DNA of 32,053 nt from Gammaproteobacteria bacterium (GCA_013695765.1 JACCZW010000134.1:1-32053), one strand, 5' to 3'; counted from the first letter of the stretch, positions 14,381-17,410 are shown. A program made the numbers and translations. Notes: generated by a model from the sequence alone, not told the origin.

Positions 14381-14499
14381 TGCTTCCTCGTGGTTGAAAA
14401 GTAAATCAATAAATGATGGACGCCGATAATTTCCAATCGCGCTTCCGTTAACAATATCGACAGACGCTGACTTCCCCTTCGACGTAAACCAGACCGACC

Positions 14500-15084
14500 G
14501 TGAACGCGAACCCCGTGCACCATTGGTGGTTGCCCTTAAGTCTAGTGACATTATCCGGCCTGTTGCAGTTCGGTATGCCGGCGACCGCACAGTGGCTGCG
14601 ATATGAACCCGCCATGATCCACAGCAGCTTTGAGATCTGGCGGCTGTTTGGCGCGCATTTCGTGCACCTGAGCTGGCGTCATTATCTGCTGAACGCCGTT
14701 GCATTGCTGGCGATTTCGGCGCTGTACGCACCCGCGCCCGGCGTGCTCGCATGGCGGCTTTGCGTCAGCGCCGCCGCGGTGAGTCTCGGTTTGTTGTGGT
14801 TCAACCTGTCGCTGGGCTGGTATGTGGGCATGTCAGGCATCCTGCATGGCCTGCTGGTCGCCGGCAGCGTGCGCGACTGTTTTGCGCGCAACGTTAGCGG
14901 CGCCCTCATGTTGCTGGCGGTGACTGGAAAATTGATCTGGGAGCAGATCAACGGACCCATGCCGGGCAGCGAGGCCGCGGCGGGCGGCCGGGTCATCGTG
15001 GACGCGCATCTTTATGGCGCCCTCGGTGGTGTCGTCGCACTGTGTGTCGAAACCATCTTCGCGCGATGGACGGGACGGCGTTGA
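14500..15084 (+). CDS. rrtA: rhombosortase (GlyGly-CTERM processing rhomboid protease)
   Basis: A 194-residue polytopic intramembrane serine protease. Rhomboid hallmarks are visible: HYLLN (H61-N65, the HxxxN motif), YVGMSGILHG with nucleophile S112, and VDAHLYGALGG with catalytic H170. The short length and lack of extra domains match rhombosortases, which cut the C-terminal GlyGly-CTERM signal of T2SS-exported proteins. It starts at GTG 14500. It is the only plus-strand gene inside the gsp locus, divergent from gspG and convergent with the S8 protease, whose 3' end it overlaps by 73 nt (15012-15084). That protease carries a GlyGly-CTERM-like end and is the obvious substrate. Whether there are other substrates in the genome cannot be seen here. 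Confidence 0.92.
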   Translation: MNANPVHHWWLPLSLVTLSGLLQFGMPATAQWLRYEPAMIHSSFEIWRLFGAHFVHLSWRHYLLNAVALLAISALYAPAPGVLAWRLCVSAAAVSLGLLWFNLSLGWYVGMSGILHGLLVAGSVRDCFARNVSGALMLLAVTGKLIWEQINGPMPGSEAAAGGRVIVDAHLYGALGGVVALCVETIFARWTGRR

Positions 15085-17003
15085 CACAACAAACCGCTAA
15101 GCCCGCCCAGCAGCATGCCGCACAGCATGAAATCCGCGGCGCCACCGCCACCGTCAGCGATGGCGGCGCCATCACCATTGTCAGGGGCGCCGCCACCCTG
15201 CGTGGAGAGGCTTGTGTTCAGCGCATAACGCCCAGTGGTGCTGATGCTGAAGCCTTCCACCGCGACGAAATAGGTGCCCGCGACCAGGCTGTTGTCGAGG
15301 GCGAAATTCAGATTTACACCTGCATCGTTCTCGCCTATCGACGGGACGATATTGTCTTGCTGGGTCAGCAATCGTCCGTTTGCATCGAACAGGTAGCCAT
15401 AGGTATCGGTGCTGCCGGTGGTGGCGACGCGCACGTTACCGGCGGCCGGCAGCGATAGCCGGTACACGTCGAACTGGTAAGCCCCTTTGAGCGCACCGCC
15501 TTGCGCGCTTCCTAGCACCAGCGGCGCCGCCGTCGCGAATGCGGCGCGCAGGCCGTTATCATCAGCCGCCGTCGCGATGTCACCGGTCGCCACGGCGCGC
15601 ACCGCCGCCGCGGCGTCGAGAAAGCCGGCCCCGCAAAGTGGGTCATCGCAGCGCTGACCCGTAACTGTCGCGGGAAACGGGCGCGCGGTGGCGCGCAAGA
15701 TCGCGATCAGTTGTCGCGGTGTCAGGTTGTTGTTGAGAGACAGCATCAGCGAGGCCACACCCGCCACCAGTGGCGCGGAGAAGCTCGTGCCAGAGATCGT
15801 TTCGTAACGGTCTCCGCCGGGAAGCGGCGCCTGCACGCCTCGATTCGCCGCACTCAACAGATCCACACCCGGTGCGATCAGCCCGATTTTCGCGCCGAAA
15901 TTACTGAACGACACCAGCGCGCCTTCGCGCGTCGAGGCGGCGACCGGCAATACGCCCTGACAGCTGGACGGACTGGTGCGCAGCGCGTTGATTGCTTCAT
16001 TGCCGGCCGCGGCCACCACCACCGCACCGGTCGCGATGATGTCGTCCACGGCGGCCTGTTCGGACGCCAGGCAGGTTCCCGGTCCGCCAACGCTCAGGTT
16101 GATGACCCGCGCCGGGTTGGGATTTCGCGGGATGCCTGGTACGGGCAGTCCCGCCGCCCAGCGTGCCGCATCGATGATGTCCGAGGCGTATCCGCCGCAT
16201 CTGCCCAGCGCGCGCACCGGCAGAATGCGCGCGCTCCAGTCAACGCCGGCGATGCCCTGGCCATTGTTGGTTACGGCGCCGATAAGGCTCGCCACGCGCG
16301 TGCCGTGCCAGCCGCTGGGCCGAATCTGCGGCGGGGTATCGGGGCCACAGGCGCCGGCGGTGGCGCCGTCGCCAGGATCGGCCGGATCTGGATCGCGGCC
16401 GTCACCGTCGTTGGCGTTTAAGAAACCGCCCCCGGGATCCTCCGAGACAAAGTCGTAACCGGGTGCGAGCCGCCCGTCAATGTCGATATGTTCGGGTCTG
16501 ATGCCGGAATCGATGACCGCCACGGTCACATCCGTGCCGCCGGTGGTCGTATCCCAGGCCGCGGGCGCATTGATAGCCGCGCGCTCAATAGCCGCTGGTC
16601 GCAGATAATACTGGCCATTGAACCGCGGATCGTTCGGGACGAGAGCCAGGTCATACCGAACATCGGGATCGGCGTATTCGATTTCCGGATGGCGGGACCA
16701 GTCTCGCGCCATGGCGGCGATTGCTCCCGGCGCCATCGGACGATCCATCGTAATCAGATGTGCGCCGCCGGACATTTCGCGCTGGATAGTCATGTTCATG
16801 CCGGTCTGTGCCGCCATGGCCGTAACGCGCCGCGTCGCGGGGACCGTTTTGCCGGTCGAATTGCGAAATTTGACGATCAGGCGCGCCGCGCCTGGCTCTA
16901 TTGATTTACCGCGCAACGTCGCCGCGGTGCCTTGTTGCAATTGCAAGGCGAAGCTTAATGCGGCGATTAGCGCTATCGCACCTGAGGTCACTTGTTTGTC
17001 CAT
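15012..17003 (-). CDS. secreted S8 (subtilisin-type) protease with GlyGly-CTERM signal
   Basis: A 663-residue exoprotease precursor. Order of parts: Sec signal peptide (to about residue 28, ending GTAA), an I9-like prodomain (about 41-117, RLIVKF to YADPDVRY), and the S8 catalytic domain with D165 (AVIDSG), H233 (GWHGTRVASLIG) and S407 (SGTSFSAPLVAG). A PPC-like beta domain (about 505-600) and a Gly/Asp-rich linker follow, then the sorting signal GGGGAADFMLCGMLLGGLSG and a basic QRRPVHRAK patch. An extra 14-residue Ser/Thr/Pro-rich tail follows the basic patch, which is unusual. The frame can be opened at TTG 17033, but the ATG at 17003 has AGGA upstream and gives a clean signal peptide. It lies 26 nt after a prodomain-like lipoprotein gene and presumably leaves through the surrounding T2SS before rhombosortase trimming. 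Confidence 0.93.
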   Translation of the reverse strand: MDKQVTSGAIALIAALSFALQLQQGTAATLRGKSIEPGAARLIVKFRNSTGKTVPATRRVTAMAAQTGMNMTIQREMSGGAHLITMDRPMAPGAIAAMARDWSRHPEIEYADPDVRYDLALVPNDPRFNGQYYLRPAAIERAAINAPAAWDTTTGGTDVTVAVIDSGIRPEHIDIDGRLAPGYDFVSEDPGGGFLNANDGDGRDPDPADPGDGATAGACGPDTPPQIRPSGWHGTRVASLIGAVTNNGQGIAGVDWSARILPVRALGRCGGYASDIIDAARWAAGLPVPGIPRNPNPARVINLSVGGPGTCLASEQAAVDDIIATGAVVVAAAGNEAINALRTSPSSCQGVLPVAASTREGALVSFSNFGAKIGLIAPGVDLLSAANRGVQAPLPGGDRYETISGTSFSAPLVAGVASLMLSLNNNLTPRQLIAILRATARPFPATVTGQRCDDPLCGAGFLDAAAAVRAVATGDIATAADDNGLRAAFATAAPLVLGSAQGGALKGAYQFDVYRLSLPAAGNVRVATTGSTDTYGYLFDANGRLLTQQDNIVPSIGENDAGVNLNFALDNSLVAGTYFVAVEGFSISTTGRYALNTSLSTQGGGAPDNGDGAAIADGGGGAADFMLCGMLLGGLSGLLCQRRPVHRAKMVSTHSATTPPRAP

Positions 17004-17029
17004 AAAATGGTTGTCCTGGTAAATCGAAA

Positions 17030-17410
17030 TCAATAGCTAAGTCTGCGATCGGCTTCCGCGTAGTCCACTTCCGGCCGCCGGTTGAGTTTGCGCAAAATGA
17101 CCGCGCGCTGCCTTTTATTCATCCGTCCGCTGTAAAGGTGCACGCCGCCGGACATCAGCCGTGCATGCCGCAGCTTGACCGGCGCGCCGAGGGGCTGGAT
17201 TAGCTTTAACTTATCCGGCGCGGACCGCGCGGCATCGATGAACTTGACGATTATACGCATCGCGGGCGGCCGCGGATCGGCGGGCCTGGCGTGCGTACAG
17301 GCAAGCCCCAGCACGGCCACGAACAGCAGGCATGAACCGCCGCCCCATGATCTGGCCAGACGGGTCGCGACCGAACCATCCGCGGCGCGGGCATGACGCG
17401 CGCCCTGCAT
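17030..17410 (-). CDS. stand-alone prodomain-like lipoprotein, candidate inhibitor/chaperone of the S8 protease
   Basis: A 126-residue protein: a basic N-terminus, a hydrophobic helix (SCLLFVAVLGLAC) ending in a lipobox with C38, then one domain at about 51-126. That domain parallels the protease's own prodomain next door: RIIVKF matches RLIVKF, LMSGGVHLY matches EMSGGAHLI, and RRPEVDYAEADRRLSY matches RHPEIEYADPDVRYDL. It ends where the prodomain would join the catalytic domain. The ATG at 17410 lies one base after the gspF stop, so it is coupled to the gsp genes, and the protease start follows 26 nt after its stop. Known I9-type prodomains fold and inhibit their cognate subtilase; a membrane-tethered free copy guarding the protease in the periplasm is my inference. 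I do not recognise a named family. Confidence 0.72.
   Translation of the reverse strand: MQGARHARAADGSVATRLARSWGGGSCLLFVAVLGLACTHARPADPRPPAMRIIVKFIDAARSAPDKLKLIQPLGAPVKLRHARLMSGGVHLYSGRMNKRQRAVILRKLNRRPEVDYAEADRRLSY

Follow-up and report, generated by a model that had tools for sequence, protein, structure and literature searches.

A putative lipoprotein resembling a subtilase prodomain, an S8 subtilase and rhombosortase encoded within a type II secretion operon of a gammaproteobacterium

The closest described relatives of the arrangement reported here are one-to-one pairs in which a rhombosortase gene (rrtA) lies beside the gene for a secreted enzyme of the GlyGly-CTERM type (Haft and Varghese 2011, PMC3237569). 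The paper, in which rhombosortase was named, listed 16 genomes with such neighbors, described rrtA adjoining a sole GlyGly-CTERM target, and reported no evidence for the enzyme as a marker of a subclass of type II secretion systems (T2SS). Adjacency of rrtA to the gene for an S8 subtilase has been published as well. For Vibrio cholerae, the account of VesB, RssP and the T2SS (PMC6219818) describes that the serine protease VesB is cut by rhombosortase ahead of T2SS engagement, that its new C terminus is joined to a glycerophosphoethanolamine-containing group for surface anchoring, and that the T2SS brings the zymogen to the surface, where it is activated afterwards. Here, we analyzed a window of 32,053 nucleotides (contig C134; JACCZW010000134.1:1-32053, the whole stretch of DNA under study) from a Gammaproteobacteria bacterium (GCA_013695765.1), in which an S8 subtilase gene, rrtA and a gene for a putative lipoprotein (here named LIPO) are located between gspF and gspG of a T2SS operon. 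Like the VesB pathway, this locus combines a secreted serine protease, a rhombosortase and a T2SS, but VesB is trypsin-like, whereas the window protease is a subtilase, and no tethered prodomain lipoprotein is seen in the sections of the VesB account considered. The window pair differs from those of 2011 in that it sits in a T2SS operon with LIPO, and in the divergence of rrtA from gspG, which proved to be widespread.

On balance, we favor the reading that the inserted genes form a cassette dedicated to the production of a single surface-anchored subtilase, in which LIPO would act in the periplasm as a tethered inhibitor and/or an aid to folding. This reading is based on the order of the genes, LIPO's homology to the S8 prodomain, a conserved cysteine, and the repeated linkage of LIPO to S8 and of rrtA to gspG; from these, we infer inhibition, anchoring and export in this cassette. 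The 3.13-Mb genome is assembled in 164 contigs, and the window holds one T2SS cluster, which runs from gspC to gspN on the minus strand in the order gspC-D-E-F, LIPO, S8, rrtA (antisense), gspG-N (Table 1). Profile matches and coordinates bear out this order, which had been given in a preliminary description of the locus, together with the single base between the stop codon of gspF (17414-17412) and the start codon of LIPO (17410). LIPO and S8 are separated by 26 bases, and both are likely cotranscribed behind gspF, in agreement with the earlier expectation that cargo and machine are coexpressed.

Profile and sequence comparisons identify LIPO as an S8 prodomain that stands alone on a putative lipoprotein, as its earlier designation as prodomain-like had suggested. 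It matched the prodomain of the neighboring S8 at 33% (E = 7e-5), and hhalign aligned the profile of mature LIPO to that of the prodomains of the S8 set with 99.1% probability (E = 2e-18, 87 columns), compared with 0.1% for column-shuffled controls. The entire prodomain core is kept, and the C terminus, where an end such as EPDR.M..Q recurs, coincides with the predicted prodomain cut point of S8. In Pfam, LIPO remained below the cutoffs for PF22148 and PF05922; the fervidolysin prodomain model PF22148 scored 15.8 bits (cutoff, 21) and was matched by four of seven LIPO members at E values up to 1, the best being 6.5e-4. The structure model has a mean pLDDT of 73, with the core above 90. Cys38 directly follows a hydrophobic N-terminal stretch and is strictly conserved among seven homologues, which represent five families. 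Furthermore, most of the other LIPO members have clear lipoboxes (LMTGC, IVSGC, LLAGC), and nearly all have a lipobox-like cysteine. Behind this cysteine, neither the window LIPO (C-THA) nor any homologue has a GGG or ND(N/D) motif, which marks T2SS-exported lipoproteins as defined in Acinetobacter (PMC12802150). LIPO therefore probably stays on the periplasmic side, although a rule from another genus can only give a hint.

The S8 protein consists of a signal peptide, its own prodomain, a catalytic domain with the triad D175, H243 and S417 (P0002 numbering; invariant in A3) that places it in family S8, a PPC-like region (PF04151, 24.1 bits, slightly below the cutoff of 25.9) and a C terminus resembling GlyGly-CTERM. 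It is the sole PF00082 match in the genome. Its end, GGGGAADFMLCGMLLGGLSGLLCQRR, combines GGGG, a hydrophobic stretch and RR, i.e., the Gly-rich/helix/basic architecture of GlyGly-CTERM. The sole other GlyGly candidate in the genome (C151) turned out to be an internal stretch of a multipass membrane protein resembling heme A synthase and was rejected as a client. The rrtA product is a rhombosortase by its TIGR03902 score and has the rhomboid serine and histidine motifs, GMSG and AHLYG (AHLYGALGG). S8 and rrtA are convergent, with 3' ends sharing 73 bp (15012-15084). Overlaps of about 50 to 75 bp are also found at L058, L260 and L264 in gamma- and betaproteobacteria, a possible case of antisense coupling.

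The preliminary description had asked for a check of the conservation of this order. In the sole other genome of the genus compared (G001), the order is C-D-E-F-LIPO-S8-rrtA (antisense)-G-H-I-J, and since a second species has the same order, the window order is not an assembly misjoin; this explanation is also rejected on the related order in the complete genome G036 of another family, F-S8-LIPO-S8, further genes, and rrtA (antisense)-G. Between the second S8 and rrtA, G036 carries a glutamate-dehydrogenase-like open reading frame (ORF) (L059:14191-15812) flanked by two stretches that encode a near-identical peptide, as judged from translations only. In G214, the order is E-F-S8-LIPO, with rrtA on a separate contig, and the Chromatiales record L254, identical in sequence to G214 there, extends it to C-D-E-F-S8-LIPO. 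Altogether, gspF is followed by S8 and/or LIPO in three families (f1, f35 and f93) and at L237, and the S8 proteins at these sites carry GlyGly-like tails.

To place rrtA in context, 369 one-per-species genomes of the class were surveyed, of which 126 had a TIGR03902 match over the cutoff, and 127 rrtA neighborhoods were compared. rrtA diverges from gspG in 42 of these, from 25 families, and lies within 500 bp of it in 41 of the 42; it is located between gspF and gspG in 12 of the 127 (10 antisense, 2 sense). By chance, about 1 such adjacency would be expected (about 20 kb viewed in genomes of about 3.3 Mb; a rough estimate rather than a formal test). A position of rrtA in the T2SS locus is thus a common arrangement, while S8 plus LIPO between gspF and gspG is rare. 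The earlier statement that the region from gspF to gspG is an unusual place for such genes therefore holds for S8 and LIPO but not for rrtA, and because rrtA next to gspG is widespread, only the insertion of S8 and LIPO is special. In four genomes (L070, L071, L104 and L068), a fatty acid (fab) cluster starting with a fabD-like gene flanks rrtA on the side opposite gspG. In G317, an unrelated 430-residue lipoprotein gene (L089:9930-11222) lies between gspF and rrtA, so the site between these two genes may accept various cargo genes.

We also analyzed where LIPO and S8 occur together elsewhere. LIPO adjoins S8 in about 15 lineages of beta-, gamma- and deltaproteobacteria. LIPO-S8-rrtA without gsp genes was found in Thiobacillus denitrificans UBA5601 (L260), a betaproteobacterium (L264), Cupriavidus (L281) and L243; in the first two, the convergent S8 and rrtA ends overlap as in the window. 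In G305, the order is S8-LIPO; there, a GlpG-like rhomboid gene follows LIPO (L217:8467-9207), and the rhombosortase is encoded elsewhere, beside gspG. Within the flanks fetched, LIPO-S8 of a Syntrophaceae member (L242), a deltaproteobacterium (L236) and a Thiobacillus (L246) have neither rrtA nor gsp genes nearby. In two genomes of one family, G173 and G028, LIPO-S8 is instead followed by a gene for MrtJ (125 and 111 bits; cutoff, 75), a glutamic-type intramembrane protease that belongs to the CPBP family and has no relationship to rhomboids. The S8 of G173 has a JDVT-CTERM domain (35 bits; cutoff, 27), and that of G028 ends in a GGGGGC tail of similar look, which the JDVT-CTERM model did not match. 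Both cassettes (L216:7599-10044 and L222:8920-11305) sit between an MFS transporter gene and clpB. The MrtJ/JDVT-CTERM system (Haft 2024, cited in PMC11980579) likewise joins one sorting protease to one C-terminally tagged target and is described as a two-gene neighborhood; in G173 and G028, the target is the LIPO-paired S8, and LIPO would be a third member.

Since the LIPO alignment was too divergent, the collection was scanned with S8 as the query. Among 78 S8 loci selected by S8 similarity alone, rrtA was nearby in 4 of the 12 with LIPO and in 1 to 2 of the 66 without (Fisher P = 0.002 to 0.004). LIPO-S8 also occurs where MrtJ, or neither sorting enzyme, is the neighbor; it is therefore the protease, and not rhombosortase or the T2SS, that LIPO partners, and a role of LIPO as rhombosortase's own partner is less likely. 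Of the dedicated cassette originally proposed, the linkage stands, with the same order in a second species, a related order in another family and the cassette present elsewhere without gsp genes. We tentatively suggest, at somewhat less than even probability, a joint wider reading: LIPO may represent a new class of proteins that derive from a prodomain, are tethered by lipid and partner surface-anchored subtilases, in a modular three-gene cassette with an exchangeable sorting enzyme (rhombosortase or MrtJ), which would have moved into T2SS operons behind gspF on more than one occasion, and rhombosortase may be an operon-level companion of many T2SS. Alternatively, the layout could be mostly historical, with rrtA and gspG neighbors by descent in many families, a cargo gene inserted by chance between gspF and rrtA, and an S8 and LIPO pair not special to this T2SS or rhombosortase. 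Such a history would fit the common rrtA-gspG neighborhoods without S8, the three LIPO-S8 pairs at L236, L242 and L246, and the many S8 proteins that lack a sorting tail. Yet it is improbable in view of the recurrence of S8 and/or LIPO behind gspF, the GlyGly-like tails at those sites, and the linkage of LIPO to rrtA above chance.

In the cassette reading that we favor, S8 would be a zymogen that leaves via Sec with its own prodomain attached. In the inner membrane, rhombosortase would cut the GlyGly-CTERM-like tail, and a lipid-like group would be joined to S8, as described for V. cholerae VesB. LIPO, lipid anchored on the periplasmic side, would act as an additional prodomain that binds the catalytic domain in trans; since its C terminus ends where a cleaved S8 propeptide would, it could fit into the active-site cleft. 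There, it may hold S8 that has matured too early inactive and/or assist folding. The T2SS would then move S8 to the surface, separating it from LIPO, and S8 would be active there. The layout, in which LIPO and S8 follow gspF and rrtA lies opposite gspG, would keep cargo, processing enzyme and machine together. The preliminary description had placed T2SS export before trimming by rhombosortase, which is probably the wrong order, as the V. cholerae enzyme cuts before the T2SS engages its substrate (PMC6219818), with anchoring the likely result.

Subtilase prodomains are intramolecular chaperones, and the whole prodomain core is kept in LIPO, both of which would suit a protein that acts chiefly as a steric chaperone (foldase) anchored in the membrane and not as an inhibitor. 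Membrane-bound chaperones encoded beside T2SS effectors, such as LipB/Lif and CpaB, are also known (PMC4713064) and, as predicted for LIPO, are membrane-tethered partners of the neighboring product. However, they use an N-terminal transmembrane helix, whereas LIPO, a putative lipoprotein, is related to the prodomain of the effector itself, and no relationship of LIPO to Lif or CpaB appeared in any search run. Moreover, nearly every S8 checked retains its own prodomain, so a second folding helper is less needed, and we consider a mainly foldase role unlikely, if slightly less so than the historical explanation. For LIPO as a putative inhibitor, inhibitors that resemble subtilisin propeptides but stand alone, such as the malaria SUB1 inhibitor (PMC6993865), offer a parallel as free prodomain-like proteins related to a subtilase propeptide; LIPO differs in being bacterial, apparently lipid anchored and encoded beside the protease.

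Several observations weigh against the cassette and the role proposed for LIPO. The window S8 already has a prodomain, and the lipobox of the window LIPO, LGLAC, is imperfect. When the LIPO model was used as the query for a fold search, Foldseek had no match at an E value of ≤0.001; only generic alpha/beta folds (Z < 8) and no convincing PDB match came up. The earlier assignment of a GlyGly-CTERM end to S8 stands for the architecture only: the GlyGly-CTERM model TIGR03501, which misses some true examples (PMC3237569), had no match in the window S8 even at an E value of 10, and about 17 residues, which overlap the 3' end of rrtA, follow QRR, versus the 0 to 5 described for GlyGly-CTERM. Some LIPO-paired S8 (L228, L235 and L246) have no recognizable tail, and the association of LIPO with C-terminal tails was not significant (P = 0.10); it is suggestive only, and we do not claim a tie of LIPO to C-terminal signals as a rule. 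In the best S8 tree, T2SS-linked S8 proteins are found at three positions, which requires three changes, but a single clade was not rejected (AU P = 0.47). Finally, the dN/dS of LIPO between the two congeners is 0.72 (mature part, 0.52), compared with 0.09 for gspF, and LIPO thus appears to be fast evolving under weak constraint in the genus. This relaxed ratio and the subthreshold family matches would also be expected of a functionless, decaying duplicate of the S8 prodomain. A relic would lose an intact ORF, the cysteine and the prodomain end, whereas intact ORFs, the lipobox-like cysteine and the conserved prodomain end persist across the roughly 15 lineages; we regard decay as very improbable.

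A consensus promoter scan found no site in the 83-bp region between rrtA and gspG, and the promoter/terminator scan performed no better than chance.

Table 1. Features of the T2SS locus in the window
Feature	Position	Strand	Basis
gspC	23521-22568	-	TIGR01713, 125 bits, over NCBIfam cutoff
gspD, secretin	22371-20314	-	TIGR02517, 563 bits, over NCBIfam cutoff
gspE, ATPase	20317-18773	-	TIGR02533, 699 bits, over NCBIfam cutoff
gspF, T2SS inner-membrane protein, final gene ahead of the insertion	18629-17412	-	TIGR02120, 510.5 bits, cutoff 424
LIPO, 126-aa putative lipoprotein (Cys38); mature part a stand-alone S8 prodomain	17410-17030	-	
S8 subtilase	17003-15012	-	PF00082, 177 bits; start ATG read directly
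rrtA, rhombosortase	14500-15084	+	TIGR03902, 128.2 bits, cutoff 84
rrtA/gspG divergent intergenic region, 83 bp, candidate promoter region	14417-14499	.	Coordinates
gspG, major pseudopilin	14416-13934	-	TIGR01710, 189 bits, over NCBIfam cutoff
gspH-N	Downstream of gspG to 8878	-	Cluster position and tblastn versus other loci
gspN	9627-8878	-	tblastn match to gspN of other loci

The components are of known kinds: the rhombosortase pair, the JDVT/MrtJ pair, free propeptide inhibitors and membrane-bound T2SS chaperones. In a literature search that covered few of the subscription journals, we found no mention of a lipoprotein prodomain that regularly accompanies surface-type subtilases and is common to two sorting enzymes unrelated to each other, nor of the divergence of rrtA and gspG, and given this coverage, the novelty is provisional. 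The physical linkage of rhombosortase to T2SS genes in many families was not reported in the founding paper of 2011. Two anchoring enzymes that are unrelated to each other appear to serve the same LIPO-S8 pair, and LIPO is a testable candidate for how the cell may keep a strong subtilase harmless in the periplasm until it is outside.
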